38,419 nt of DNA, from positions 1 to 38,419 of the IMG/VR virus record IMGVR_UViG_3300030102_004431; one strand, given 5' to 3'. Every line of letters starts with the position of its first letter. Positions within the stretch are counted from its first letter, which is position 1. The notes below the pieces were generated by a model. It had not been told where the DNA came from, made no database searches, and saw nothing but the letters and a program-made list of their open reading frames with translations. Origin of the DNA: a virus. Shown here piece by piece: positions 10,001 through 29,060 of the stretch. A program made the position numbers and the translations under genes.

Positions 10001-13000
10001 TTTTCCCCGGCACCCCGCTTTTGAACCAACATCGCGGCAACATCAATCCACCGTTCTTCAACTCTGAAAACATGCTAACGCCTGACCTAAAACGCGGCGC
10101 GCAGGGACATCACAGCGATTACCCCGCCCCATATTCGAGTGGCGTGAAAGTGCAAGTCCCAATTCCGCTGGTGCTGCGTTTCGCACACCCCACTGCTCGA
10201 TACAGCGACCACAGCGGGACCACAGACAGCAAAACCACCTACCTGATTTTCGGTCCCGGTCAAGCCTTCCCATTCACGGCTCAAACCGCTACCCCCGACA
10301 ACAGCAGCGAACCACATCCCGGTCGTGCTTTGACTGTCGGCAACACATGGTCGAAGGTGCCAACGCACACCAGTGGTAAGCAGTTCCTGCACAACCACAT
10401 CACCAATTCAACCGTCGGTTTCCTTCCCGAACTTCACTCCACACAGGTTGCTCGTTATCGGACACACTGGCGACAAACGATGAACTGGGAGCCTGCACAG
10501 GGCAAATCCAATGCCACGCGATTGCTTCAGCGTCCTGAGTCCGGCCGTTTCTACGGTGAAATGTTCACGTCCAACGGTGTGCTCAACAGCGGCTCACTCG
10601 CTGACTACAGGACCGCTCATCCACTTCGGCATGCTGTGTTCATGGGATTCGGTATGGCCAGCAATTCTGATTGGTGTTTTCACATGGACGGCGGTTATCA
10701 CCCCGGTGGCTCGTGGTTGGACAATCAACTGACGTTCAATCCACCACACCCCAACGACAACAGCCGCGTAGCAAAAAGTGGCGTGGCCGGTAATGAACTA
10801 CACCCAAGCGCATTCCGCGTAGCAGCACCATTGGCCAACCGGGTGCTTTACGGTTCATCTGCGTCTTTTGCCAGCGACACTATCGAGAGCGACGACATCG
10901 AACTCGAATACATCGCTGTTGACGCCACGAAGTGTCAGAATGGGGAAGAGATGGCTGCTCTGCTTGGCTCCGCCATCAACTCATTCCCCGGTGCTGGTGC
11001 GCTAAAGGCCATGGGTGGGACATTCCTACCCAGCATGGGAACCAGCAACCGGCAAGACCGCTACGGTTGGGTCGAAGTCACGGGAGTTGTCGCCTATTTC
11101 CTTAGTGCAAACGATACGGCTGGAAACATCAAGACCAACGCCATCAAGAACAATTTCATGACGCTGGCCTTTTCCACTCAGGTTTTGGCTGAGCAAGTTC
11201 CCGAAAGCGGTTGGCTGCGAACGAGTGCTGACTTTGACAACGGGGTGGACAGCAACAACGATTCTGCTGCCTTTGCTCCCTATCACAGCCGAATCGTCAA
11301 ACTTGACACGAGTTCAGGCCAATACCATGTCACCTTCTATCTTGGTAGCAACCGCATCGCTGGCTCAAAGGCCTTTGAATCGCTCAAGACATGGAAGGAC
11401 TACCTCGACACGGGCGTTGCTGCGGGTAGTGAGACTGTTCCCGATGTGAGCGGAGCAACCAAGGTCTACGTGTGGACCAAGGCAGGCGTTCACCGATGGG
11501 ACAACGCGGGTCGACTTGAGGGCTATTCACAGGTGCACTTCAGCGGTTTGGTCGACGCCATCGACAGGACACGTCCAGTCGGGCTACCGGGTTGGCACGG
11601 TGAGCGCTATTCCTACCTAAACACGCTGGCTGTGTCCGGCGCATATTCCGCTGGTCTTGGGGCATGGCACCCATCCCTCGGTTTCTCTCCATTCGGCGGT
11701 AGCATGGGTTGCGCGTCTGTGCTCGGTCACTTGCCTCACATTGCCCCCATGCCCAACAGTCCCGAAAGTGGTTTGCCCAACGACGGGAGCAACGGTGCTG
11801 CCGACTTCCCCGATGCCGACACACCCAATGGTCCGAACTATGACGCTGACGAAGACGGCGACCAATCCTACAGTGCGAGTTTCGTTGACGGTAGCAGCAA
11901 CAATAGCCCACCACTCACCACGTTTGACGAAAACGTGCACAAGGACTTACAGCACGCTCAAGGCGTATATGCCCGAGCCATGTTGGTCGTCGCTCACGAG
12001 TCAGAATTGGCTTTGGTGGCCAAGCGCGACCGTGACGGTATCAAGTGTGTTGGTGACTGGTTGCGGTCCAAAGACGCAAGTAGCATTACATTGGCCGGCA
12101 CAACACGTTGGGACGACCGGATTCACGGTCAGGACCGCTTCATCGCAACAGCAAACGCAGGTCCCAACATTGAGGCTCTCATCGTTGATGACACGGCTCT
12201 GCCAACGGTAAGCAGCCCTACAGCAGCCAGTGGTTTGGTAGCCTCACCGTTCAACGCTGAGTTCTTCTTGCACACGGCCGTTTCCGCAGACACTGAACTC
12301 GAAAATGCCGAGCCGTGCCGCAAACCAACTGGTGACTTGTTCCTCGACATTGACAAGAGCATCGGCTCTTTCTATTCCGCAAGCGCTGGCGCGCAGCGCA
12401 ACATCATGGACCATTTCTATGAGGCAGGGAGCAACAACCCAATGGGTGGTTTGTGGGGCGGTAATACGCAGAAAAACTCCTACTGGATGGGTGACGTCAA
12501 CGGTTATGAGATGTTCAAGCGTTCGCCGGCCAAGAACTTCAGCATCGAGCACATCGTGTGGAAGCGCATGGACGGAGGTAGTCTGTCGCTACCCGCCATG
12601 AACGCGCGTGGGCTTGGGGCTGTGCCATGGGTCAGTCGCGTCGAAGGCAGCAACGCCTACACGACCGGTGAGAAACTGCTTGGCAACGTGCGTTTCTCGT
12701 TTGAAACGACGAACTCAGCGATGATGCCAATTATGCGAGCGCATGAACTCGGCCATCCTCAATTGGCTGTTGACCCACCTGTCGAACTCCGCGATGTGTT
12801 GGAAATCCCCAACGAAGAGATGCAGTTTGACGATATGGTCGTTGTCGATGACACAGGACAAACACACACGCTGAACGGTGGCTCGCCGTTGGGTGTTGTC
12901 ATTCGTGCCTACCGCTCCAGCGGGGAGCGTCTCGCGAGCGGGCTTGCCCCGTCTGTTGCAGGCACTGGGCTTGAGCCGAACATGACAATTCGTCTACCCG

Positions 13001-16000
13001 ACCCCAACGCGATTCCCGGCAACATCCTTGTTCGCAGTGGGTTCGACCGTGTGCAAGCCTATCAGACCGAAACCATGGGTGATGGCGGTATGATGACCAA
13101 TCCACAAAACCTCGGTCAACTGTTTGATGGGCTGACCGGGCCTTTTGACGCACCTGTGCTGTCCGAGGCAGGCTGGGAGCATATCGACAAGACAGGATTG
13201 GACAGCACCAGCAGCAAGTGGGACGCGGCGACGGGTGACAAGCCTCTGAGCAGTGCGTATGAACTGCACGACCGCACTCTGTTTTTCCACGTCACCAAGA
13301 TGGGGCACAGTCACACCGACCGTTACCCAACGACCTACACGCACAGCGGGGGTCTGCAAAATCAAGCATTGACGGTGTCTTCGTATGCGAGCAGCACTGC
13401 TGTTTTGACCGCATCTGCGTCAATCACAACTGCAATCTTCGACGCCGACTTCGCCACGAAGGAAGTCATGGATGAGGGGTCGGGTAAGCGACGTAGGTTC
13501 CTGCGCCTCGCTACCGTAACAGACAGCGTCGTCGTCTCCTACACAGGCATCAGTGGCGCTACGTTCACAGGAGTGGTTGGCGATATTGACTTCGACCAGT
13601 TCTTGCTCGACAACCCACCTGCTTCGTCCACCATCAACGTCACTCCGTCCTATTACGTGCCTGCCGGTAGCACTCGCTTCTTCGCAGCACGGCGTTTGCG
13701 TGACCACGCAGAGGTCAGCGGCAACAGCCCTGACATGGCGCACACGCATTACCTGAACGGGAACGCTGACACGACAGGCTATGCTCGCTACAGCGTGCCG
13801 CGCATGACACCCATGCCTTACCCGCGTATGGGCCATCACTTCGTCAACGCCACCATGCCTATGCTACCCGGACACTGGGCACATCCTGCCTATCAGGGCC
13901 TCTATTCGGGACATGAAGCGGAGCGACGCGCGACCCTGCGCGACCCTGACTACATTCGTTTGCTGGACCATGCTGACCTTGACGACTCTACCTTTGACGC
14001 CAACGTCTCAGACTACCTTCACCCTCTCAATCCACAAGTCCGCATCGGTAGTCTGACCGCTACACCCAGCGGACCCAGCGACATTCATGGTGGTGGTTTC
14101 ACCTTGATGTTTGAGACGAAGGTGCGCTTCGACGGCTACGGTATTCTTGCATCAAAGGGCACGGCGGGAGACATGAACAAGGCGGGCGGTCATTCGATTG
14201 TGCTGGAGGCTGGTGCGAACTACACGCAAGACAACCACTTCCCCGACCCCGCTGAAGTCGGTGCCTATCAGATTGTCATTCAGCCCAATCTACACGAGGC
14301 GCAGATTGCTGGTTTCCATCACAACAACAGCACGACCACCGCCTTGCCAAACGGCAGCAAACGTGCACTCACAGCCCAGCAGATTCACCTCGTGGTTGGC
14401 ATCAAATATGATAGTGAGCGAGGTGGTTCACCCATCGGTGGAGCGACACTCATTCTTGCCGAGGCGACGTTGGCTGACGTGCGAGGTTGTGAAATCTTCG
14501 TGAACGAGGTCATCCTCGACCACGACCCCGACCACGGCAGTCACTTCACAAACATCCCACCGATGCTGCTCTATAACGCACTGGGTGTGCAGGGTAGTGA
14601 GTCACCGACATTTACACGTCGAACTCAGCCGTATCATCCGGGCATGTTTGAGGACAGCACGCCCGGACATACGCTGAACATCCCGTGGTGGAGCATTTTC
14701 CACAAAGTGGCACCTGACGACTCCTCGTCTACCGGTTTCAGGCATTTGGCGCTTTATCGCATTGACAACTTCTACCAGTTCTGCCGAGCGTCATCGGGCG
14801 CAGTGGCGGCACAACTGACGTTGGCTGGCTACCCCTCCATCAGTCCCGACATCTATTCTGACGTGATGGCCAACGTCTCACTCAGTCCTAAGTGCACCGT
14901 CACTGGTAGCGGTTCAGGCTATATTGAGGTCGATGATGCGTCGTTCTTCCCGAACAAACCAGCCTATGGGGAGCGTCTGCACTACGTTGACGCAAGTGGG
15001 AATGACAAGTTCATCACCTACACTCAACGCAGCGGCACGACTCACAACGCTGCAACGATGAACCAACCTGACCGCTTCGTCACCAGTGCGAGTTCACCCG
15101 GCAACGGAACGGTTTTGCGACTAACGCGACCTTACAGTGAACGTATGACTGAAACGCTGTTCACTCATTCTAAGAGCAGCGTGTTGACCCGTATCATGCC
15201 GCAAATGTTGCCGGGTTCACGCGACACGAACAGCCTCTATACGGCTGACGCGTTCTTGTGCATGTGGCATCACAACCTCGGTCGTCCTCACACATTCTAT
15301 TCTGATGGCAGCCGGACATGGGGTGGCACGACGACAGACCGTGCAATCAACAAGGCTGCGTATAACGGCATGCCTGAGCACTTCGAGACAGTTCATTACC
15401 ACGCGGTGAACTACGCGGCCAGCCATGGTCCGTTCCATCTTGACTTCAAGACGCCAAAACCCGCGCAGCACTTGTCGGGCACCTTCAGTTCGGTCAGCGG
15501 TTCACCCTCTACACTGGTGTTTGGTGCAGACGTTTCAGGCGACGGCTTGGTCGGCAAGGTGTTGTTCACCGATGGACGAGTCATTGGAACAGTCGCATCT
15601 GTTTCAACCACCGACGTCACGTTGACTGGCGACATCCTCTACACCCCCGCTGCTTCAACGACCGTCTACGTTGGTGCGGATGGGTCGGTCGATACGGCGG
15701 CCAACATCCACGCCATGACCGGGTATCAGGCTCAGGGCGGCACTTCAACGATGCTGACTCATTACTGGCCGTGCGGTAGTCGAGGTGGGCCACTGGTCAG
15801 CCGACTCGACGGCTATGCGGCTTGGGCTGCCGGGTGGCATGTGCCTCGCCAATATTCATCCGGTGGCGGTAAGCACTGGGTCGATGACGACGATGATGGC
15901 TCATACGCCGTGTCCAGCGGCTTGAGCGATGGCTCGCTGGTTGCGTCTCGCACCTATCCGTTTGGCTATCGCTTTGGCCTACGCCAACCGTGGAATCGAC

Positions 16001-17916
16001 CGCAGTGGGGCTTCTACGGTATGCGTGCACATCGTGAGGAGGGCCTGTTCAGTGGCTCACCAGCCAACGCCAATTATGCTGTGGGTAATGGCACTGGACC
16101 ATTGGTCGCGTATGAGACTCAGACGTTGACGGCAAAGGGTGGAAGCAACAGCAACCAAACGCTGAAGCCGACATACGCCGGTATCATGGAGCGACAGACC
16201 AACTTCAGTGCCATGCTCGGTCCCGACAAGGCTGAGTGGCAGGTTCGCTACAGCGACGGTCGCCGCATGACTCGCTCATTCGGTTGCCCTGTGCGCACCA
16301 TTCGCAACGGTAGCGGCGCTCCGCGCGATTGGTGGGGTGACAGTGCCGGTTTGGGCATCTCCACGATTGATGCTGCTGTCGGGTATTACCTCGTTGACTG
16401 GTGGGGCAACACGCGTGGTGAAGACATTCGACGTGCCCCGGTGCGAGGCTTTGGGATTCGCCCGGCATGGGACGCAGGTGATGCGTATGAGTATGACCGC
16501 ACCAACGGCCGCACGCCCTACGCTCGGCTCTATAACAACGGCAAACCGATTGTCAACCTCAAGGGTATTGCTGACAGCAGCGGTGACGTGCTGAGCAGTC
16601 CTACCGCCGTCGTGCCTCGCTTTGGCGGTCGAGTCAACAACACAAACAACGGTAGCACCACCACGCTCGTTGACGTCTTCGCCCCCACCAATGCACTGCG
16701 CGTGGGTGATATGGGTGGTGGTCGTGGTGTCCGTTATCCAACGCAGTTTAACGAAGACGTGCTGGTCGAAATCAGCGACGTGTATCAAGCGTCAGGTGTT
16801 GTCTTGTCAGGCAACACCGCTGAGCCTGCCTTTGGCCAAGGACTCATCCGTCCGCTTGATAGTGAGGTGCAACCTGACGAAATCAAGCGCGGCATCAGCC
16901 GCCGTCTTGGTGTTGATGAGGATGGTTTGCTGAAGCCCGATGCCGTCGTCAGCGACCGAGTTGAAAGCATCACTGGCACCAGTGTCCACAAGGACGCGGT
17001 GTCGCGTTCATCCCCTCGCATCGGTATTGACGGTGAGACGACTGAATCGCTGTTCAACGGTGTTTCGACAGACATGGTCGCCATCAACAGCGAAGCCCAC
17101 AGCCTGCACACTGACCTCGGTGTGGGGCAGCGAATTGTGCTTGAAGGCGGTATGCAGACTGGCTCACAGACGCTTGGCGACTATGACCTGACGGCTCTGT
17201 CCTTTGCTGGTCAACCGCACGGCGGTGTCATGCGATTTACGCACACGAGCAACATCAAACCAAGTGGCGGCACCTATGTCCTTGAGTCACGCTCTTTCGC
17301 TGCGCCGTTTGATGACACAGGATGGGGGCGCTCAGGCTCCGGTAACACCAGCAACCCGTTCCAAACGACAACTGCGACGTCTGCTCCGCACAACCTGACG
17401 GCCACCAAGGTCACGTTCATGCTGCGCCCAGTTCGACTGCTTGACAACCAACACGTTGCTGTCTTCCGCAGTGAGCGCAACGTCGCTGGCTCGACACCTC
17501 AAGACGGTGGCACGGCTTACGGTGCGACTGCGGGTGGAAAATACGGCCTGTTCACGTATGAGGCGACGGACGCGACGTCAACGAACTACGTGCGCACGAC
17601 CATGCCTGACGGCAACGCCCCGTATCACCCAGTCTACTTGATGGAGAGCAGCAGCGATACGGTGCCTGTCTCCAAGGGTCCGAAACTACCCGGCACTGCT
17701 GTCGCTGGTTTCGACAGCGACTCGCTCAAGAGCGTGGTTACACGACTCGTTGTCAGCGAGAACACGCTACAGCACTTCCGTAGCGATGCACCTCGTCGCA
17801 GCCTTTCCAAGAAGGACTTCTCAGTCAAGCCTCGGTTCAGTCAATCGTTGCATAGCAAGGGGCATAAAGGAGATGTGGACTACGGTGCATCAGACCATAG
17901 CGGTGACGCATCATGA
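1075..17916 (+). CDS. Giant 5613-residue tail/adhesin protein with lectin-like domains
   Basis: One uninterrupted frame of 16.8 kb encodes a protein of about 600 kDa. Residues about 8-245 look like a LamG/concanavalin-type jelly roll: it opens with LLFDGVTDSVIIP, then FAIEAWVTP, then LLHLVAGVREGKVVLFVNG, and closes with an IGG...FRGIIESLHI strand. A second similar domain lies at about 4335-4560 (GGGFTLMFETKVRFDGYGILASKG ... IHLVVGIKYD ... EIFVNEVIL). The rest is Gly-, Ser-, Asn-, His- and Trp-rich beta-type sequence without a recognised family. Acidic DxDxDG-like loops near 3589 and 4936 might bind calcium. No signal peptide or membrane segment is evident. Position between a tail protein and the hub and fibre genes suggests a tail-tip or side-fibre adhesin that binds host surface glycans. 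That role is inference; a tape-measure role is less likely because long helical or coiled-coil stretches are absent. Confidence 0.85.
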   Translation: MPIMLQSNHALLFDGVTDSVIIPQGRNSRVGEKSEQGDIVSTNLLGEDLSGERGQGLIGDLFDRGFAIEAWVTPDCGGRVVQKDGQFLLSVGDVDTPGPAVFELNVVSDVGLEKVILRTAVETTAGYDGTVYPVNTFGGVDDAFNRFNSDDDATALTLSQRPLLHLVAGVREGKVVLFVNGVLMASQELSQEFVLNSSNEPVFIGGHGGQFRGIIESLHISSAFSDEMTTRSAPLVNTHTACLMRFEEPISPISGTYTFSSIGSSSGLSTLNIGTTTAASLASALTGKTQTSGTVDFTKTPYSTGDYSVVDFTTSPGTKRTHLVPHVPFNLLINPGAVKRSTMKPNQSPPERVRLLSIDLGAGTALVSSVHLDFVNSTHDSRDVPSLHDGLRPVLHSRSSATGDDYFVVITGDSLIENGSGRPYQPPHFSTQIVDRTGQMVLDEGHFEQHGIVYSDRMATTASDSDNPFAVTWPSTLDASFQVGHSGRHTLNHVQGHHYLRQMADPQEEILDQRIDAADVLTLIYDAASKGIDKQFPMNSRVDYYRELGTLPVLTVVSSSTAYEEVDNGLTGASRDLIAIGGLSGGLRFDPSPFFLKGPVPEDYANVDAELRKHHLRPSATSRIAVLEVSGLSSYGMSPYVEIHYNAIDLTGASMGKTAPMLMVEKTIPAANTLLSGSTYVLDVIETALSSGATLHAPGGVISFGAPSDSAMSQFFASNTLMGDNSEGFESDDELDERFTPQNYSTIVANQPRKPPQNIAASHTTATHESQFNRLVIQQIDAPTETFTNRRAVHTDHTSPSNGQFDVGRTASASNVHEMFDIIDNHAVLSPNVKARYFVQPSNRTRTRQLTYARGAFTRPDDFNVAKVMLLMSPMRLRSVAEDESDEGSRATIVRCVGMNADAMTRNVSEIGSGSPNSHVVKEIEPNAPVVTVTLGGVGQGAYDTKPTFDPSPMARLPYSTRRGYSVYATSARVDLSASPQNFLNVVALNNDTDDLKTWATYPFPKKGRIYLKTGASAEYANKTGVSFHFANASIGSGTYVLSDGREVASFHEWVVGSGLIPQASSLSGTNSDVYPLGEVILGDGHFFAENAADDGTTVNDRMFQSMDNVTHDYQLGTQFASTRALVEIPLFNAQFFENVNEGVLPGPDNSLKLHVDPTMTAHTWNPSPVGRRFPEKAPSDRSARGAYAYAAENSEQVRGATIIHKAEIVSGKYRLRVDKPEIFPAAVTSAGAFSYVTNVVRYRRAFLSNGEWLIYDNDPATDGYLRFEDEDWSTSENFLRDYEVGHSLMTAGGYESEALVPMESDILTSSSAMERRSEYYHDSASVKTQGGNVDYGLRQYVSAVEFKAGPKSNPHANRTVAKRASGTVLSVTPLGTTANFGGLVLLTFSEEDFAKFPKVPVPTDTNNLITFTTGDYHYELTVPSPDGSIRRFIYWGSAANVGLRSSDMTPENLGTSIVVQPVFTALAATTPNYLLATSADFIAGEKATLTKRSFDIGFSVNPLDVALETTLNISDSFRPGGTGVRKSWTVANVASTSSMTVTNTSSLFLQSNTLGLTVKVNDYLYAETNTGSAVTVVRYLGRVTAIADYSASSSLPLTITLDGSMTSATQSNINSEIAGGSLTIHLRVGCHDVMKNDDEAVLNRQWLSPYAQGGLRHGDTVWANMTYNNPHAVEGMFAKSRGVFNEALVWTGFNDGDGSLTTSARTSIPLENFLIGDSCLETAQNYAQHVNKTIELNYTNLGLSTDLAPKVAFVDPYLANEEHARVLLYDVAHDREFVAFQDLHMQVQTSAKVAEIGWQREFTATNIVDSSTEIDLVPYSIGFNGASQHAFLTQIDVAAGFLSQNKYARSTIRSRFMESAYAHDIANHVATSLLNPIASGTAPTNIVKELTNVTRIAQFGKAHGHFVHTGYHKAGPFGNRSLGDSILPRTTDGSAIPYWADKMHAYTRTSFSDTGSFLLKLREHRESVTGASFRDPSTLFDTPDGTRVVPAFLALKGIRSEALNLTTHDEARLQHLKQWTDMDFTRRLTIDLGEVGARIGGTSILAAANEVVRLINQAGAKQGRTHARRPSEQYPGESESLDLTRVGARAADGIRDPASSHINADFAATGSTHDPAVWWDEDKAFESHDKGTHMGYVRAHIGRIVQDTNGNEGFSIVVHSTVPGATGRNFCVWLDNSKGQSRYTPKFLIGHGGRYRTFWCQPDELSGENMHPAPMPLNKHGRPFAPVTTLQGYVVPDDSGVEFKPSSDFAPRGDETSDPVMRAVSMATGSGQSHNTVNTESLEVEGFNTSYVTGLRTGTNAVARVNFGGLTASGVPGFAPDAGKWGFGRKGDVRIAERYGPAKDTSGSSAAATTYSSYVPSTDVREEAIGNAPLYGFRFIDHRGVGHGIRFIYRSMGESFALDETQLPSTIDDEIAVFIDDRDVGQGGFTIGKHMHGVGDATGRFGAAGTNTSLMSWRGNRWNPVPSPSAAYDCNAAYDSSSNKITVTLQAPYNACPHFDVLGYMGFPLSQGLLQLSDPFVDSSMTGSQGHVFSYTHRTREGSSGTHVFHGIQGSTFTPSHTHSGGSVSANSSSVFGTGSINIRALISSTVNWTTLVTDELLAAITAAAINLADPNVDEGVPFDCRDMFASDGRTFGEWGVAEDAIRIRAFNTAGGGIRPLSDFFSASLHRDFAIQSAHVEFGDIEEIEVDNGGISLPSTSRAATDASIDNGLRAECGYLPFTVLQVFTKSKGSNSNTASPVLVDSRNNPVDPDEWHRRLIGYTFTANAGDHVLPRVDNPSVLLLAAEVTSDPIQLTTNQVWHFAQPAGEEGTSISSKTKIASFGSVSNLHVQNGDVLVTSQNGANSKTHLSLVTGTKTSTFPASDPASNAVAQRFGDTARAFRTAGSRVLGSVFSRPMLFFRGGRDSIDHSVPLFFGGGFSGVTLDINDGTKNDYSEFFTHPYAAGPTGVAGVQHANEFLSSYSMLDCNAMMAFFPGTPLLNQHRGNINPPFFNSENMLTPDLKRGAQGHHSDYPAPYSSGVKVQVPIPLVLRFAHPTARYSDHSGTTDSKTTYLIFGPGQAFPFTAQTATPDNSSEPHPGRALTVGNTWSKVPTHTSGKQFLHNHITNSTVGFLPELHSTQVARYRTHWRQTMNWEPAQGKSNATRLLQRPESGRFYGEMFTSNGVLNSGSLADYRTAHPLRHAVFMGFGMASNSDWCFHMDGGYHPGGSWLDNQLTFNPPHPNDNSRVAKSGVAGNELHPSAFRVAAPLANRVLYGSSASFASDTIESDDIELEYIAVDATKCQNGEEMAALLGSAINSFPGAGALKAMGGTFLPSMGTSNRQDRYGWVEVTGVVAYFLSANDTAGNIKTNAIKNNFMTLAFSTQVLAEQVPESGWLRTSADFDNGVDSNNDSAAFAPYHSRIVKLDTSSGQYHVTFYLGSNRIAGSKAFESLKTWKDYLDTGVAAGSETVPDVSGATKVYVWTKAGVHRWDNAGRLEGYSQVHFSGLVDAIDRTRPVGLPGWHGERYSYLNTLAVSGAYSAGLGAWHPSLGFSPFGGSMGCASVLGHLPHIAPMPNSPESGLPNDGSNGAADFPDADTPNGPNYDADEDGDQSYSASFVDGSSNNSPPLTTFDENVHKDLQHAQGVYARAMLVVAHESELALVAKRDRDGIKCVGDWLRSKDASSITLAGTTRWDDRIHGQDRFIATANAGPNIEALIVDDTALPTVSSPTAASGLVASPFNAEFFLHTAVSADTELENAEPCRKPTGDLFLDIDKSIGSFYSASAGAQRNIMDHFYEAGSNNPMGGLWGGNTQKNSYWMGDVNGYEMFKRSPAKNFSIEHIVWKRMDGGSLSLPAMNARGLGAVPWVSRVEGSNAYTTGEKLLGNVRFSFETTNSAMMPIMRAHELGHPQLAVDPPVELRDVLEIPNEEMQFDDMVVVDDTGQTHTLNGGSPLGVVIRAYRSSGERLASGLAPSVAGTGLEPNMTIRLPDPNAIPGNILVRSGFDRVQAYQTETMGDGGMMTNPQNLGQLFDGLTGPFDAPVLSEAGWEHIDKTGLDSTSSKWDAATGDKPLSSAYELHDRTLFFHVTKMGHSHTDRYPTTYTHSGGLQNQALTVSSYASSTAVLTASASITTAIFDADFATKEVMDEGSGKRRRFLRLATVTDSVVVSYTGISGATFTGVVGDIDFDQFLLDNPPASSTINVTPSYYVPAGSTRFFAARRLRDHAEVSGNSPDMAHTHYLNGNADTTGYARYSVPRMTPMPYPRMGHHFVNATMPMLPGHWAHPAYQGLYSGHEAERRATLRDPDYIRLLDHADLDDSTFDANVSDYLHPLNPQVRIGSLTATPSGPSDIHGGGFTLMFETKVRFDGYGILASKGTAGDMNKAGGHSIVLEAGANYTQDNHFPDPAEVGAYQIVIQPNLHEAQIAGFHHNNSTTTALPNGSKRALTAQQIHLVVGIKYDSERGGSPIGGATLILAEATLADVRGCEIFVNEVILDHDPDHGSHFTNIPPMLLYNALGVQGSESPTFTRRTQPYHPGMFEDSTPGHTLNIPWWSIFHKVAPDDSSSTGFRHLALYRIDNFYQFCRASSGAVAAQLTLAGYPSISPDIYSDVMANVSLSPKCTVTGSGSGYIEVDDASFFPNKPAYGERLHYVDASGNDKFITYTQRSGTTHNAATMNQPDRFVTSASSPGNGTVLRLTRPYSERMTETLFTHSKSSVLTRIMPQMLPGSRDTNSLYTADAFLCMWHHNLGRPHTFYSDGSRTWGGTTTDRAINKAAYNGMPEHFETVHYHAVNYAASHGPFHLDFKTPKPAQHLSGTFSSVSGSPSTLVFGADVSGDGLVGKVLFTDGRVIGTVASVSTTDVTLTGDILYTPAASTTVYVGADGSVDTAANIHAMTGYQAQGGTSTMLTHYWPCGSRGGPLVSRLDGYAAWAAGWHVPRQYSSGGGKHWVDDDDDGSYAVSSGLSDGSLVASRTYPFGYRFGLRQPWNRPQWGFYGMRAHREEGLFSGSPANANYAVGNGTGPLVAYETQTLTAKGGSNSNQTLKPTYAGIMERQTNFSAMLGPDKAEWQVRYSDGRRMTRSFGCPVRTIRNGSGAPRDWWGDSAGLGISTIDAAVGYYLVDWWGNTRGEDIRRAPVRGFGIRPAWDAGDAYEYDRTNGRTPYARLYNNGKPIVNLKGIADSSGDVLSSPTAVVPRFGGRVNNTNNGSTTTLVDVFAPTNALRVGDMGGGRGVRYPTQFNEDVLVEISDVYQASGVVLSGNTAEPAFGQGLIRPLDSEVQPDEIKRGISRRLGVDEDGLLKPDAVVSDRVESITGTSVHKDAVSRSSPRIGIDGETTESLFNGVSTDMVAINSEAHSLHTDLGVGQRIVLEGGMQTGSQTLGDYDLTALSFAGQPHGGVMRFTHTSNIKPSGGTYVLESRSFAAPFDDTGWGRSGSGNTSNPFQTTTATSAPHNLTATKVTFMLRPVRLLDNQHVAVFRSERNVAGSTPQDGGTAYGATAGGKYGLFTYEATDATSTNYVRTTMPDGNAPYHPVYLMESSSDTVPVSKGPKLPGTAVAGFDSDSLKSVVTRLVVSENTLQHFRSDAPRRSLSKKDFSVKPRFSQSLHSKGHKGDVDYGASDHSGDAS

Positions 17917-19118
17917 GCCAAGAAGCCATGACCAATGCTGAATATCAGCAGTGGTTGCAGAGGCAAATTGCCTCTACGATGCGGCCGGGGTTCCAAATGA
18001 GTGGGGGCCAGCAATCAACGCTCAATGATTTGTTTGCTGTGCAACCGGTTGACGCTAATCTCAATCAAAGAACATTCGCGAGTGGGGAAAATCCTAACGC
18101 GTGGTGGTTTGACAATCGGTCTCCTGACAGGCAGAGGGCAAAATCAATTGACGAGCACGAGGCGAACCTCAGATATGCCATGAGTTCCTCGGACGGCACA
18201 AGAGTGCCCACCGCCCAACCAGTGGAAAACACGCGCAGACCCGTTGCTATTGTGGAGCAGAGAACCCCGAAAACACTCAGCGGCAGCGACCATGACGGTG
18301 TGAGGCATGCTTGGAAACCTGACCAATACCGTAGGAGTTTCAGACTGGTGGACGATAAAGGAAAAGCGCTGTCTCTCATTGATGATGCTGGCTATAGGCA
18401 ACCGGGACGTGGGCACGAAGACGGGGTTCGAGGTTTCAGCGGTCAAACGCTCGGACCCATGCGCAGAGGGCATTACCGCTCTTTGATGGAGGGGTTAATT
18501 CGTCACGGACACAATGTTCGCTCAGATGACCGCAACGAGATGTCACATCCGTTTCACACCAAGTTCCAGCGAACACTGCCTCCTGACATGACCGTTGAAG
18601 CGAGGATTCGCGACCGCGACAGGAACATTGAGCACTATGGTCAAGGAGAGTATGACCCTTCGGACGTAAATCCAAGAGACGTCTTAATTTACGAGCGTGA
18701 AATCCCACCATCGCCTGAAAACTGGGGCGACCTGAGCGGCCCAACACGCAGCCGATTCCCGCTCTTTGTGCAACACAAAGAGCGTGCGCCTTTTCGTGAC
18801 CACCCCGAATGGGAGGACTCGCAACAAACGCAGTTGTTTGTTCCGAGACGACCAATCGGCGTATCGCCATCCATGTGGGCGGCCACAAGCCCAAGTGAGC
18901 GTAGGAAACAGACTGAGCGCGATTTGAGAGAGCGCGTGGAAAGATGGTTTAGCCGCCAACAGCAGGGGGAGCAGGCGCTACGGCAGGGCGGCGTCTCGCT
19001 GGACGAAACATTGGATTTGGGTTTGTTGCCCGGAATAAGGCAACCACCAATGCCTCGAATGGAGTATGAAACAAACCCTCGCTTCGTAGGTGTTAAATCT
19101 ACACCTGATGTGATGTGA
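17913..19118 (+). CDS. Hypothetical 401-residue protein, weakly acetyltransferase-like core
   Basis: The ATG overlaps the stop of the giant gene (ATGA) and has GGTGA six bases upstream. The N-terminal ~110 residues are low in hydrophobics and look disordered. The middle (about 120-225) includes FRLVDDKGKALSLIDDAG and RRGHYRSLMEGLIRHGHNV followed by SDDRN and a HPFHTKF segment. This pattern of strand, basic turn, long helix, strand, Asn and aromatic helix resembles the acetyl-CoA-binding half of GNAT acetyltransferases, but the match is weak. The C-terminal part is rich in Arg, Pro and Gln. About 21 of roughly 49 arginines use AGA or AGG, far more than in the adjacent giant gene, which suggests a separate origin. 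It could equally be a minor virion protein. Confidence 0.7.
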   Translation: MSQEAMTNAEYQQWLQRQIASTMRPGFQMSGGQQSTLNDLFAVQPVDANLNQRTFASGENPNAWWFDNRSPDRQRAKSIDEHEANLRYAMSSSDGTRVPTAQPVENTRRPVAIVEQRTPKTLSGSDHDGVRHAWKPDQYRRSFRLVDDKGKALSLIDDAGYRQPGRGHEDGVRGFSGQTLGPMRRGHYRSLMEGLIRHGHNVRSDDRNEMSHPFHTKFQRTLPPDMTVEARIRDRDRNIEHYGQGEYDPSDVNPRDVLIYEREIPPSPENWGDLSGPTRSRFPLFVQHKERAPFRDHPEWEDSQQTQLFVPRRPIGVSPSMWAATSPSERRKQTERDLRERVERWFSRQQQGEQALRQGGVSLDETLDLGLLPGIRQPPMPRMEYETNPRFVGVKSTPDVM

Positions 19119-19120
19119 CC

Positions 19121-19966
19121 ATGCGCGTGACCATCTACGAAGTCGGACCTCGTGATGGGCTACAGTCGCTGCCACATGTCGTGCCTGTTGAACAGCGGCG
19201 GCAACTCATTTCATCGCTCTATAACGCAGGCTTGCAGCACGTCGAAGAGGTGTCTTTTGTCCACCCCAAATTGCTACCGCAGATGGCTAATGCAGAGGAC
19301 GTCTACAGCGGTAAGGGCGATGCCCTTGTGCTCAACAAGCGGGGCCATGAGCGAGCCGTCGCTGCGGGTGTTGAGCGCATCAACATCGTGCTTTCGCCTT
19401 GTGAGTCGTTCTGCATCAACAACATGGGTCGCAGGTATGACGAATTGGTGTTGAACTATCGGACGTTTATGCAAGACGTTCCGAAGGACAAGGTGCGTGT
19501 CTACCTATCCATGGCGTTCGGCAGTCCTGACAGCGGCGTGTTTGATGCTCGCACGCTGCGTCGCTGCATCAGCGATGCCAAAATGTTCGGTGACACCATC
19601 GTGTTCGCAGACACCGTCGGCGTGGGCACAGCCAACGACGTTTGGGAAATGTCGCGCTTAGCGCAAGACTACGGTATGCGTCCCGCCTTGCATCTGCATC
19701 ATCGTGGTGACGAGGGTAAGCCGCTCACGCTCGTGCGTGCGGGGATTCTCGCAGGTATCAGCGAGTTTGACGCCAGCATCGGTGGGCTGGGAGGATGCCC
19801 ATTCGCAAGGGGAGGTGGGGCAAACATCGCCACTGAATCATTGGCTCGTCATCTTCACGCTTGGGGTCTTGAGACTGGTCTTGACAGTCGGGCATTGAGG
19901 AGTGCAGCGGCTCTTGCCTTTACCATGAAGCATCCACAGCCGCAGATAACAGAGGCGCACTGCTAA
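19121..19966 (+). CDS. HMG-CoA lyase homologue (HMGL/DRE-TIM family)
   Basis: This 281-residue protein matches hydroxymethylglutaryl-CoA lyase along its length (the family is about 300 residues). That enzyme splits HMG-CoA into acetoacetate and acetyl-CoA using a divalent metal in a TIM barrel. Key residues are present: GPRDGLQ at 9-15 (catalytic Arg11 and metal-binding Asp12), Glu42 or Glu43 before SFVHPKLLPQM, the metal-binding HxH pair His191/His193, the GLGGCPFA loop with catalytic Cys226, and Asn235 before IATE. The residues after HxH differ (HR instead of DT). The protein ends in Cys, as cellular HMG-CoA lyases often have a C-terminal Cys. The ATG at 19121 is preferred; a GTG at 19115 overlapping the upstream stop is possible. 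Genes on either side are virion genes, so this appears to be a viral metabolic gene acting in the host cytoplasm. The related synthases (citramalate, isopropylmalate) lack GPRDGLQ and GGCP. Confidence 0.88.
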   Translation: MRVTIYEVGPRDGLQSLPHVVPVEQRRQLISSLYNAGLQHVEEVSFVHPKLLPQMANAEDVYSGKGDALVLNKRGHERAVAAGVERINIVLSPCESFCINNMGRRYDELVLNYRTFMQDVPKDKVRVYLSMAFGSPDSGVFDARTLRRCISDAKMFGDTIVFADTVGVGTANDVWEMSRLAQDYGMRPALHLHHRGDEGKPLTLVRAGILAGISEFDASIGGLGGCPFARGGGANIATESLARHLHAWGLETGLDSRALRSAAALAFTMKHPQPQITEAHC

Positions 19967-19992
19967 AACGCACCACCGCTTGGGGTGAAGTG

Positions 19993-21375
19993 ATGGCTTA
20001 CCTTGGCAGCAAGCGCAGGTCCAGCGACTATAACGCTGTGATGAAGCAAGTCCGCAAGCCGGTGTTTGTCGACAACGCCCTACACCTCGGTGAGTTCACT
20101 GCTCAAGGCGTTGACAAAACCAAGGTCACGGTGCGGCAGCGTAAGGCTGCAAACTACCCTATTGCGACAGAGCGCACCTTCACCATCGAAGAGGGACAGG
20201 ACGAGATTACGCTCACGCACACTGGTGCACCGGGTCACTCGACGACCACCGCACGCTATGACGACACAGCACCCATGCTCTACAGCAGTGAAAAGCCATC
20301 GCAACGCCTACGCCTTGGCTCTGTTCTCAGCACCACCAACGGTCTACGCATGTCGGTGCGAAACAAGCGTGGTATGACGCTGAGCGAACTTGGCTTTGAG
20401 AGCGACAGCGGGCACGTTGCCTTCCCATGCGATGCTGGCTTAAGAACTACGGACATGGCGATGCGATTGGGACAGGACGTTGACTCACTCACATCGGTCA
20501 ACCTGACCGGTCCCCGCACTGCTCAGTCAGGTAACGCGCGCCGTCGTCACAGCACGACCTTCGTTGCGAAGAACTTCAAGGCCGTGAACCTGCTCACTGC
20601 GTTGCGTTTCCTCGGTCGGCACGACAACCGCGTTGCTTTGTTCGACCGCTTCGGCAACCTCATCTATGCTCCGTTCACTTACGGTGGACCCGGTCGCATC
20701 GTTGAGGCCAGTTTGCGCTCAGGCGGAGCCAACACTGACCCAACCGATGAAAGCGTCACCGCTGTGGTGGTTGTCGGCGTTCCCTTGGCTGTGAACGAGA
20801 GAGCCTTTGCCGAAGTGCGAGACTCAGAGCGAGAAAGCGGGCGTGGAGCCAACATCATCGAAGAACCGCAGCGCATCGAGGACTTCACCGTTAGCAGCAA
20901 CGAGGGCGCCCGTCGTGTCGCGCGTGCGGTGCTCAAGGCCAACAACCTGAGCGCTGGCAAGAAGACCAGCGCAGGCCATCCTGACGCATTCGATTTGCGA
21001 CCCGGTAGCGTCATCGAATATGAGAACGTCAAGCGTGTGTTGACTGAGGTAAGGCACCGCTTGAGTTCCAACGAATCTGACCTCGTTTTCCTCAATGTGG
21101 ACATCGGTATCGAGGGTGTGCTGCAGGGCATCAGTGAGGGTATAGGGGACGTCGACCTTGAGCCTGAGACGCAGGAGCAGGTGCGCGAACATGTGCTGTC
21201 ACTGTTCGGAGATGTCGAAATTCGCTCCATTGCCATCGTCACGCTTAGGGGGCATGGCGATTCAGGTATGCTTGTGGGGCGTGCTATGGGTCGTGGCATC
21301 ATCGGTGGCACGTCGTCATCACAGACCATTGGTGGTAGCAAGACGAAGGCCATTGTGTTGAGAGGTGACAACTGA
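19993..21375 (+). CDS. Putative baseplate hub / tail protein (gp44/protein D-like)
   Basis: GGGGTGA lies four bases before the ATG at 19993; a GTG at 19990 is also in frame. The 460-residue protein has a beta-rich first half and a middle with FDRFGNLIYAPF. A segment RRVARAVLKANN is followed by a DLRPGSVIEYE motif. Phage baseplate hub proteins of the Mu gp44/P2 gpD/VgrG type have a comparable pattern: a helix in which residues are re-indexed, then a loop stating where the definition is referenced. The C-terminus is Gly/Ser-rich (GRAMGRGIIGG). The two following genes overlap or abut it, as in baseplate clusters. The hub assignment rests on weak motif resemblance and context; a generic tail protein is the safe reading. 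Confidence 0.6.
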   Translation: MAYLGSKRRSSDYNAVMKQVRKPVFVDNALHLGEFTAQGVDKTKVTVRQRKAANYPIATERTFTIEEGQDEITLTHTGAPGHSTTTARYDDTAPMLYSSEKPSQRLRLGSVLSTTNGLRMSVRNKRGMTLSELGFESDSGHVAFPCDAGLRTTDMAMRLGQDVDSLTSVNLTGPRTAQSGNARRRHSTTFVAKNFKAVNLLTALRFLGRHDNRVALFDRFGNLIYAPFTYGGPGRIVEASLRSGGANTDPTDESVTAVVVVGVPLAVNERAFAEVRDSERESGRGANIIEEPQRIEDFTVSSNEGARRVARAVLKANNLSAGKKTSAGHPDAFDLRPGSVIEYENVKRVLTEVRHRLSSNESDLVFLNVDIGIEGVLQGISEGIGDVDLEPETQEQVREHVLSLFGDVEIRSIAIVTLRGHGDSGMLVGRAMGRGIIGGTSSSQTIGGSKTKAIVLRGDN

Positions 21376-21716
21376 TGCCAGTGAGCGACCGACTGAAGCG
21401 TATGCTGCTTGAAACCATTGAGTCCAACATTGATGAGATGGTCATCGGCTTTGATGGCACACCGTCAACCAGTCAGGACGGGGCTGCGGGGCGACCTGCC
21501 ATCGTCATCACACCCACAGTGCGTATCACCAGCGACAGCACTATTCTTGTCGAAGGCTTCATACCGGCGACCGAGTCATTCACGGACACGCTGAAGGAAG
21601 TCTTCGTTCAACTGCGCGGCACCAACCCCATCCCAATCGCTCGCCACACCATCGCTCCAATCTTCAAAACGACCGGCAACGAAATGCGGATTCAAGTCAT
21701 CATCGAGGTGAAGTGA
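21375..21716 (+). CDS. Small conserved-looking tail-module protein (113 aa)
   Basis: The ATG overlaps the stop of the upstream gene (TGATG) and GGTGA lies six bases upstream. The protein starts with a helix (DRLKRMLLETIESNIDEM) and continues as alternating strands, including TPTVRITSDSTILVEGFIP and a C-terminal MRIQVIIEVK strand. No family is recognised. Its place between the hub-like protein and the fibre suggests a baseplate or fibre-attachment component, which is inference from order alone. Confidence 0.65.
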   Translation: MPVSDRLKRMLLETIESNIDEMVIGFDGTPSTSQDGAAGRPAIVITPTVRITSDSTILVEGFIPATESFTDTLKEVFVQLRGTNPIPIARHTIAPIFKTTGNEMRIQVIIEVK

Positions 21717-26748: not shown

Positions 26749-28154
26749 GCGACTGCCTCCTCTTTCAGACGTAGATAGACCTGCCGCCCGTCCTTGGCGA
26801 CATCAAACTGATGTGCTGCCCAGTCGTTGAACTTCTTGAAGGCTGTTGGTTTTGTGACATGTTGATTGACCATGAAGAGGTCCAACATGGCCGCCTTCTT
26901 GCGCCAGCCCTCACCTCGCTTGTCCAGTTCGACGGGCGAAGTGGCGTTATAGACGTCCAACCACTCCTTCCAGTTGGCAGCCTTCTCAGCCTTCTTGGCA
27001 CCGACTTCGACTTCACCCTCCAACCACTGAATCAGGTTCTTGAACAGGTCATACAGAATGTCCTTGGCCATGTCGACGTGCCTACCCGTCACCGTCCATG
27101 TATTGTCCATGAGCGCCATGTGTGTGGCGAGGATGACGGTGTAGTTCTCCATCGCGGGCACGAAGGACGCGACCACATCAGAAATGGTGAAGTCGAGATT
27201 GTCGAGCAGGCTGTAATAGTCGTCAATCGCATCGTCTGCGGCTGCGTAGAACGAGTCGTCGGCGCTGAACATGTCGAACATGATGTCCTGCAGAATGTCC
27301 TCTTGGTCTTCGCGGTCCATCTCGTCCCACTCGGTGAACGTCGTCTCGGAGAGGTTCAGCACACGGTCGCGTAGCCGCTTCTCCAAGTCGGTGAAATACG
27401 TCACGATGTCGTCATAGGAAACCTCGCTTGGCTTCGGCTTGGTGAACGCCCTACGCACACGGCGGCGACTCACCTTCTTGCGACGGTCTGTGTCCCAGTG
27501 TGCCCAGTAAAGTAGCACACGCTGGAAGATACCTTTGGTCAGCACGTATTCCTTCACGCCCTTGGGCGGGAACGTCGTAATCCACATGGACGCCAGCGAC
27601 TCTGTCTCGATGGTGCGACCGCTCAGGTGCTTCACCAGTTTGTTGCTGTTGCTCCCGATTGGGTTGCACGCTGACTGCAGGTAGAGCACCGTCTCCTGAC
27701 TATGCTTACCGGGGTTGAGGATGATGGACCCCTCGTCAAAGTTCAACGCCTTCTGACCACCGAGCATGCCTTCCGTTTCGACTGTGATTTGCTCCTTCTT
27801 GCCATCGTCGTTGACGATGGTTTCTGTAGCCGTGCCGCCCACAAGCCCAGCGTCAGAGCCTGTGGTGTAAGCGACCGTCTCCAAGCCGACGTCATCCATC
27901 ACGTCACCGATGAACTCCCATGCGATGGATTTGCCAGTTCTCGATGGTTGAATCCAAAACATGTGGACGCGAGGGTCGAGGTGTGTCTCATCCCAGTAGA
28001 TGCGTAGGTATGGAGCAGCAATCTGCCCTTGGATGAAAAAGAACGACAGCATCGCTGGAATGTCGTTGTCAATGCTGACTTTGCTGAACTGCTCAATGTA
28101 GCCCCGCATGAAGTCGTTGTTCTGCACGATGTCGTAGCCTTCTGCCTTTCTCAT
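26745..28154 (-). CDS. AAA+/P-loop ATPase, candidate replicative helicase (469 aa)
   Basis: A P-loop is seen as IQPSRTGKS (residues 68-76, matching GxxxxGK with the first Gly replaced by Pro). Walker B is ALNFDEG with Asp140-Glu141. A WITTFPP segment near 191-196 fits sensor 1, and KGIFQRVLLYW with Arg212 fits the position where MCM-like and DUF3987-like helicases carry an arginine finger. The C-terminal ~150 residues are helical, with a possible winged-helix end. Its place among primase, polymerase and nuclease genes, with no other helicase in the window, makes a replicative helicase likely. Whether it is MCM-related or DUF3987-related cannot be settled by eye. The ATG overlaps the nuclease stop (ATGA), with AGGAGAGG upstream. 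Confidence 0.75.
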   Translation of the reverse strand: MRKAEGYDIVQNNDFMRGYIEQFSKVSIDNDIPAMLSFFFIQGQIAAPYLRIYWDETHLDPRVHMFWIQPSRTGKSIAWEFIGDVMDDVGLETVAYTTGSDAGLVGGTATETIVNDDGKKEQITVETEGMLGGQKALNFDEGSIILNPGKHSQETVLYLQSACNPIGSNSNKLVKHLSGRTIETESLASMWITTFPPKGVKEYVLTKGIFQRVLLYWAHWDTDRRKKVSRRRVRRAFTKPKPSEVSYDDIVTYFTDLEKRLRDRVLNLSETTFTEWDEMDREDQEDILQDIMFDMFSADDSFYAAADDAIDDYYSLLDNLDFTISDVVASFVPAMENYTVILATHMALMDNTWTVTGRHVDMAKDILYDLFKNLIQWLEGEVEVGAKKAEKAANWKEWLDVYNATSPVELDKRGEGWRKKAAMLDLFMVNQHVTKPTAFKKFNDWAAHQFDVAKDGRQVYLRLKEEAVA

Positions 28155-28864
28155 GTTCTTCCTCTCCTGACTGTTTGCTGTAGTCGAACTTCCTCTTCGC
28201 TGCTGAGGACCTCGATAATCATTGCCCTCTTCTTGTCACCAAGTCCCTTGACCTGCTTCAGTGAGGCTGGATGCAGCATCTCTTCGATGCTACCGCACTT
28301 GTCCAATAAGCGGTCGGCCAAGTCAGGCCCGATACCGGGCATGGCGAGCAGAACGTCCTTGCGAACGTCGTTGGTTGAGACACGGCGGATGGCGCGTGCG
28401 CCATGTGCGCTCGCAGGCTTGTGCAGTTTGTCGTGAAGTTTCACGACGAATAGGGACGCCTCGCTGACGTTGGCAGTGTAGAACACCTGACAGTCAAAGT
28501 CTGCCATGATGCGCGCAATCGTGCCGGTCAGTTCGCTCTGAATGCGACTGTAGGTCAAACGCTTGCGGGGGTTCTTGTTCTTGGCCATGGCCAAGTATTT
28601 GTCAATGCCTCCGTGGATGAGCAGGAAGAAGCGTTCGTGGTTTGCATCCATGTTCTCCAACTGACGCCATAGGTGCCCACTGTGACTGGACTGGAACAGG
28701 TCGGTGATGCTCTTGGCCTCGACACAAGACCGGCCCAGCAGGTAGTCCCCCACCACCAGTCGCTGTCTGACAACGGCAAGACCGGCTTTGTTCGCCTTAC
28801 GCTCCACAGCGTCGCACAAAGGGCCACGCTCGTTGCTGTCAATGATGAGGTCAGGTTTTGGCAA
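28151..28864 (-). CDS. XPF/ERCC4-type structure-specific nuclease with HhH domain (237 aa)
   Basis: From a TTG start the protein begins MPKPDLIIDSNERG, the first strand and acid of the ERCC4 nuclease fold (Asp9, Glu12). The metal site continues with VVGDYLLG (Asp40) and VEAKSITDL (Glu49, Lys51, Asp55). The usual ERKxxxD motif has Ala in place of Arg. Residues about 170-222 hold a tandem helix-hairpin-helix (MPGIGPDLADRLL, VKGLGDKKRAMI). This is the layout and size of the short, helicase-free crenarchaeal XPF nucleases that cut branched DNA. No clear PCNA-binding motif is seen at the C-terminus. The frame is open 58 codons further upstream, but that part overlaps a cysteine-rich gene and reads as non-protein-like, and a strong ribosome binding site sits six bases before the TTG. 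Confidence 0.88.
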   Translation of the reverse strand: MPKPDLIIDSNERGPLCDAVERKANKAGLAVVRQRLVVGDYLLGRSCVEAKSITDLFQSSHSGHLWRQLENMDANHERFFLLIHGGIDKYLAMAKNKNPRKRLTYSRIQSELTGTIARIMADFDCQVFYTANVSEASLFVVKLHDKLHKPASAHGARAIRRVSTNDVRKDVLLAMPGIGPDLADRLLDKCGSIEEMLHPASLKQVKGLGDKKRAMIIEVLSSEEEVRLQQTVRRGRT

Positions 28865-29060
28865 CGACTTCCCTCCTGTGATATGGGCACAAGTCTGCCC
28901 ATTGACCGCAGCGCTTACCGCTACGCGCGGTAGCCGAGCAACGCCAGCCTTCAGGTGGTCCCAAAGACCGGCACGCCTGACAGAAAAACGCCCCCGTGTA
29001 GCGGGGCTTGCGAATTCTCCGAACGTTGCACAGTTCACATTTGACTTTCGGCATTGTCAT
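28851..29060 (-). CDS. Small protein with two zinc-binding modules (69 aa)
   Basis: This short gene overlaps the start of the XPF nuclease in another frame. It encodes CxxC-x15-CxxC (Cys8, 11, 27, 30), a zinc ribbon, followed by C-x9-C-x6-C-x2-H (Cys41, 51, 58, His61), like the small C...C...CxxH modules found in many phage proteins. AAGGAG lies just upstream of the ATG at 29060, which is inside the end of the preceding winged-helix gene. Seven cysteines in such order are unlikely by chance, which is the main evidence that it is real. The function is unknown; DNA or RNA binding is plausible. Confidence 0.78.
   Translation of the reverse strand: MTMPKVKCELCNVRRIRKPRYTGAFFCQACRSLGPPEGWRCSATARSGKRCGQWADLCPYHRREVVAKT
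28871..28876 (-). promoter_or_regulatory. Ribosome binding site deciding a TTG start
   Basis: GGAGGG (within CAGGAGGG) lies six bases before the TTG at 28864 on the minus strand. It sits inside the last codons of the upstream zinc-module gene, and it fixes the start of the XPF-type nuclease just before its first catalytic strand. Confidence 0.75.

Follow-up and report, generated by a model that had tools for sequence, protein, structure and literature searches.

An HMG-CoA-lyase-type enzyme with a complete set of catalytic residues encoded in a probable magrovirus contig

The window, that is, the whole stretch of DNA analysed here, comprises 38,419 nucleotides of the IMG/VR record IMGVR_UViG_3300030102_004431. 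Its main features are collected in Table 1; further matches corresponded to a PD-(D/E)XK nuclease and a primase-like protein. The lyase ORF is uninterrupted and its ATG (19121) lies two bases past the stop of the preceding ORF. An in-frame GTG is found six bases upstream, at 19115.

Table 1. Coordinates of the features located in the window
Feature	Position	Strand	Remarks
ORF of 5613 aa, possibly adhesin or fibre	1075..17916	+	Lectin-like match (Laminin_G_3), 22.9 bits, below the cut-off of 27.6
ORF of 401 aa, no known family, directly upstream of the lyase	17913..19118	+	
HMG-CoA-lyase-type enzyme, 281 aa	19121..19966	+	Key residues E7, R11, D12, Q15, E42, D164, H191, H193, C226, N235
ORF of 461 aa, no assigned family, downstream of the lyase	19990..21375	+	Chance-level Ig/cadherin-like matches only
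ORF of 113 aa, no assigned family	21375..21716	+	
Tail-fibre-like protein, 889 aa	21718..24387	+	phrog_21412, 1.8e-18
Thermosome-type (group II) chaperonin, 503 aa	24632..26143	-	
ERCC4-type nuclease	28151..29038	-	
Family B DNA polymerase (PolB)	32242..34647	-	

A sequence-only reading of this DNA had described the lyase gene as packed between virion genes. This was correct in part: a tail-fibre-like gene is the third one downstream, but the three nearest neighbours (401, 461 and 113 aa) gave no match at E 0.01 in PHROGs or Pfam, and the 401-aa ORF had none in the PDB either. Of the 66 neighbourhoods that were compared, nine hold the family of the 401-aa protein close to the lyase, a count that includes the window (17913-19118) and its near relatives (the other members are in L002, L003, L020, L022, L037, L045, L049 and L066). 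In all nine the gene lies at most four ORFs from the lyase, despite differing lyase settings, the search having covered lyase neighbourhoods only. The family displays the stretch RRQGxYRxLMxxLxRxG, which we take to be reminiscent of acetyl-CoA-binding GNAT enzymes, with no database match. The 5613-aa ORF occupies 44% of the window, and relatives of part of it occur in 11 other lyase neighbourhoods; its scan covered residues 1-3642.

Within the tail-fibre-like gene, a 150-base stretch (about 23428-23579) has counterparts in six Synechococcus phages, in whose tail fibre genes the DNA is 70-74% identical, a resemblance that hints at a possible exchange of fibre modules across hosts that belong to different domains. 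The terminal portion of the gene (about 24134-24371) did not align with three otherwise colinear contigs and forms a variable patch where the two gene halves meet.

The archaeal virus setting proposed in the sequence-only reading was upheld, the virus being of a tailed archaeal type. Among annotated phages, the 25 PolB matches listed highest were all haloviruses, at 23-24% identity. PolB, the ERCC4-type nuclease and the chaperonin are found in a half that is transcribed opposite to the virion half. Magroviruses have been described as carrying PolB, a chaperonin and nucleases, with oppositely transcribed virion and replication halves (PMC10768690; PMC12999244; available text of PMC10160649). 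A chaperonin gene was present in all 17 related records of at least 80 kb, G001 included. The one in the window is of the thermosome type, and in the available text of PMC5332604 such chaperonins are associated with a single clade among the viruses of Marine Group II. Magrovirus genomes measure about 90-110 kb; the window is a 38-kb fragment, the nearest relative found for it is 82.8 kb long, and among further PolB relatives lengths go up to 115.6 kb. By its gene content, compared with the published descriptions, the contig most probably belongs to the magroviruses (Magrovirales), and the virus probably infects common ocean archaea. Recoding was considered for the related PolB genes, as in-frame stops appeared in 8 of 40 stretches. 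These were located at codons 3-9 only, so they probably precede the true start, and recoding was discarded.

The sequence-only reading had also called for a search of other virus contigs for the same insertion. Three such contigs were found (82.8, 48.3 and 24.1 kb, bearing different IMG dataset numbers), with the lyase in place at protein identities of 100%, 95% and 100%, respectively. They are colinear with the window through the gene, and the DNA identity of the segment was 94.7%, 94.5% and 93.5%. The window is therefore not a chimera. An assembly error that joined host or bacterial DNA to a viral contig would be favoured by the abundance of bacterial HMG-CoA lyases and by the two matching phage records that are probably misfiled bacterial DNA. 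It is already contradicted, however, by the colinear contigs, and it also disagrees with the G+C content (0.57 for both gene and window) and with the position of the viral copies, which a 100/100 branch separates from 43 bacterial proteins; its probability is practically negligible.

In the annotated phage collection three records matched the lyase, two of them Acinetobacter phage MD-2021a and the third without annotation. None of them looks related to the viral lyase. The one examined (L018, CAKLQH020000001.1), filed as Acinetobacter phage MD-2021a, contains an acyl-CoA, carboxylase and leucine-degradation-like cluster of a kind usual in bacterial chromosomes and is probably bacterial DNA.

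The Pfam HMGL-like domain was located on residues 3-264 of the lyase (E 1.1e-20), corresponding to profile positions 2-258 of 260. It also covers nearly the whole protein in the 26 viral members scanned (26/26). The best NCBIfam model by far was that of HMG-CoA lyase (NF004283; 4.6e-58, 196.7 bits). This score does not reach the cut-off of 246 bits, a curated database naming threshold, and the protein is therefore termed HMG-CoA-lyase-type and assigned to a divergent viral branch. Two divergent viral relatives (L083 and L096), scanned alone, exceeded the same threshold with 254.9 and 248.1 bits. The models of citramalate, isopropylmalate and homocitrate synthases gave scores of 18-29 bits, against cut-offs of 413-517. 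Thus, the comparison with the HMGL and synthase families that the sequence-only reading had proposed placed the protein far closer to the former. All six sequences matching in the PDB at 0.001 were HMG-CoA lyases, and PHROGs at 0.01 gave no match for the window lyase.

The AF2 model of the window lyase had a pLDDT of 93.8, and that of a cellular lyase 96.5. In Foldseek, ranks 1-14 were occupied by HMG-CoA lyases and rank 15 by an isopropylmalate synthase. The top eight entries in VIA-align were HMG-CoA lyases (Z 34.6-36.4, 1.9-2.2 Å, 263-271 residues), followed by an aldolase/dehydrogenase with Z 27.3. The predicted fold is closest to solved HMG-CoA lyases. Together with the Pfam, NCBIfam and PDB sequence matches, this bears out the claim of an HMG-CoA lyase gene, in the form of an HMG-CoA-lyase-type enzyme.

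It had further been claimed that the residues of HMG-CoA lyase chemistry are kept, and this was confirmed for GPRDGLQ, the cysteine of GLGGCP (C226), the asparagine (N235) and the HxH motif, H191-L-H193, whose placement needed profile alignment. A broken HxH, with loss of a metal ligand, had been suggested by phmmer and MAFFT, which placed Arg195 against the second histidine. It was rejected on three counts. Alignment of the viral (26 rows) against the cellular (32 rows) proteins by hhalign set H191-L-H193 on HxH (E 9.8e-86), with a 2-residue insert following the motif in the viral alignment. Intermediates exist among the divergent viral members, whose HFHE or HLHN resembles the cellular HFHD, for example IAMHFHE in the viral L096 and IAMHFHD in the cellular L118. 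Finally, in both the viral and the cellular AF2 models the first histidine lies 8 residues past the preceding helix and the next helix begins 6 residues past the second histidine, the strand end alone leaving the register ambiguous by one residue.

The metal and catalytic residues of HMG-CoA lyase (human R41, D42, H233, H235, C266, N275 and others) are all present in the window protein. Fourteen positions (human E37, R41, D42, Q45, E72, S75, N138, R165, Y167, D204, H233, H235, C266 and N275, numbered by alignment with the PDB sequence), which we take to be catalytic, metal or substrate residues, were identical in 81 of 81 viral proteins. This figure includes near-identical copies and is inflated by two of the search patterns used to gather the relatives, which overlap some of these positions. 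Among lyases from records chosen by PolB, 20 of 24 were examined (all but G034-G037; 11 of the records concerned are represented in the 81 as well). All fourteen residues are kept in 19 of these proteins and thirteen in one, which has Ala for Ser at S75. The very divergent viral lyase L320 (G033) has GGCF for GGCP and an altered DTxG segment, with all fourteen residues in place.

Changes were observed in the segment that reads HDTxGxxLxN in cellular lyases. In the window its T and N are replaced (D197 and L204), its G is kept, and the 2-residue insert is located there; the N is kept in 15 of the 81 viral proteins. Because of the changed segment and the insert, the substrate could differ from HMG-CoA. 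A lyase of the same mechanism might then act on a longer 3-hydroxy-3-alkylglutaryl-CoA or on another host hydroxyacyl-CoA. In line with this possibility, the loop that follows HxH is altered and lengthened, T and N are lost in the branch of the window, and the score falls below the naming cut-off for HMG-CoA lyase. One bacterial family member also accepts a longer substrate. All the checked positions that match human catalytic and substrate residues are kept, however, the closest structures are all HMG-CoA lyases, and the divergent L083 and L096 pass the cut-off, so that another substrate seems rather unlikely.

The spread of the gene was evaluated in two sets. A scan with a small alignment returned 126 viral lyase relatives, of which the best 80 were used (34-100% identical). 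For a count unbiased by the lyase itself, the best 80 of 180 viral records with a window-like PolB were taken. The lyase was found in 24 of these 80 (10/30 and 14/50), many of the records being short fragments. In records of at least 80 kb it was present in 14 of 17, and in 8 of 10 of those of at least 95 kb, some of them close kin. No PF00682 match was detected in the three long records lacking the lyase (G042, G045 and G055) or in nine lyase-less records of 51-79 kb (0/12). HMG-CoA synthase (N-terminal Pfam family) and HMG-CoA reductase each gave no match in the 17 long related records (0/17), the controls being positive in 7/14 and 5/14 genomes, respectively.

A maximum-likelihood tree was built from 62 viral and 43 bacterial proteins. 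In it a branch supported at 100/100 separates all viral proteins from the bacterial ones, across long branches; the program's warning about long rows concerned, among others, L093, L094 and L080/L081. The bacterial set represents 43 of 80 loci, all bacterial by title, drawn from at least 591 genome-scan stretches. As no archaeal lyase is included, the tree cannot establish a single capture. Three gene settings were distinguished among the 66 neighbourhoods. In 16, as in the window, the lyase is close to the chaperonin-proximal end of the tail-fibre genes; in 28 it lies ahead of another set of genes without known function; and in 9 it is found between the terminase and an HNH gene, followed by the portal. 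The remaining 13 were unlabelled. The tree requires the setting to have changed six times or more, either by moves within genomes or by exchange between viruses.

The viral lyase is under strong purifying selection, with dN/dS values of 0.040-0.139 in the 13 pairs computed (13/13; dS exceeded 1 in two of them). This bears on the idea that an enzyme relative has been retained for structural or regulatory purposes and does not act as a catalyst, as its place among late genes, and in one group between terminase and portal, might suggest. Such selection speaks against that idea, as does the constancy of the catalytic positions, which are the most constant part even in drifted proteins such as L320. 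In addition, changes of gene setting are unexpected for a part tied to virion assembly. A purely non-catalytic role is thus considered very unlikely.

The sequence-only reading did not recall this enzyme as an auxiliary gene of archaeal viruses. That point did not stand, as HMG-CoA lyase is already named in magroviruses in two papers: the ICTV profile gives it as an auxiliary function of Aoguangviridae (PMC10768690), and Xu et al. (2023) include HMGCL in their list of auxiliary genes of magroviruses, with leucine degradation as its pathway (available text of PMC10160649). A residue, spread or tree analysis of the magroviral lyase was not found in the literature consulted; one may exist in Xu et al. 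(Figure 5 and supplements) or in Philosof 2017, Zhou 2023 or Prabhu 2025. On the host lyase or the leucine pathway in Poseidoniales the literature yielded nothing usable. The present analysis adds the constancy of the active site, the presence of the lyase in 14 of the 17 long records, the viral branch, the changes of setting and the lack of synthase and reductase matches in those records.

The protein is best explained as a member of a virus-specific branch of HMG-CoA lyases, a TIM-barrel, divalent-metal enzyme that would cleave (S)-HMG-CoA in the infected archaeon to acetyl-CoA and acetoacetate. We estimate the probability of this reading at about 70%, substrate and role being deduced from sequence and model. 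It is preferred because the catalytic set is complete, fold and family matches agree, purifying selection is evident and the gene is widely retained. Against it stand the NCBIfam score below the cut-off, the altered HDTxGxxLxN segment and the 3 of 17 long records without the gene.

The HMG-CoA lyase reaction yields acetyl-CoA and acetoacetate. Archaea make HMG-CoA for their isoprenoid lipids, and the host would therefore supply the substrate of the viral lyase. Host HMG-CoA synthase and the viral lyase together could constitute a ketogenic shunt, which would drain a lipid precursor and return acetyl-CoA and free CoA during virus building. Alternatively, the same reaction might complete leucine breakdown by the host, and the sequence cannot choose between the two uses. 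A broader proposal can be put forward tentatively, as possible rather than probable: the lyase may belong to the near-core functions of magrovirus-like viruses, as a single old viral branch that was moved around the genome with its active site fixed, and the shunt formed with host HMG-CoA synthase may shut off archaeal isoprenoid lipid synthesis and recycle acetyl-CoA and CoA for the virus.

To our knowledge, no magrovirus has been cultured. An enzyme that is catalytically intact by its sequence and encoded in most of the long related genomes offers an assayable handle on the effects of these viruses on their hosts. What it suggests is viral control over a step of host metabolism, either in the archaeal mevalonate pathway or in the use of leucine. 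In the surface ocean, magroviruses are said to be ubiquitous (PMC10160649).

Compared with known systems, the window lyase has the fold, the catalytic and metal positions and the GLGGCP loop in common with cellular HMG-CoA lyases (human 2cw6, Brucella 1ydn, Pseudomonas 2ftp and Acinetobacter 6nds), at 29-32% identity over the structural alignment. The viral branch differs from them in a loop after residue 64 that is about 7 residues shorter, in the changed and longer stretch after HxH and in an ALHLHH-type motif; in the window, SLP replaces NEK after GLQ. The citramalate, isopropylmalate and homocitrate synthases share the TIM-barrel superfamily with Z values of only about 22-26, and we know of no GLGGCP-type cysteine loop in these families. 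With Aoguangviridae and other magroviruses, as published descriptions present them, the contig shares the enzyme name, PolB, a chaperonin, nucleases and oppositely transcribed halves. The chaperonin differs in type, being GroEL in YSH_150918 according to published accounts (PMC10768690; available text of PMC10160649) and thermosome-type in the window.
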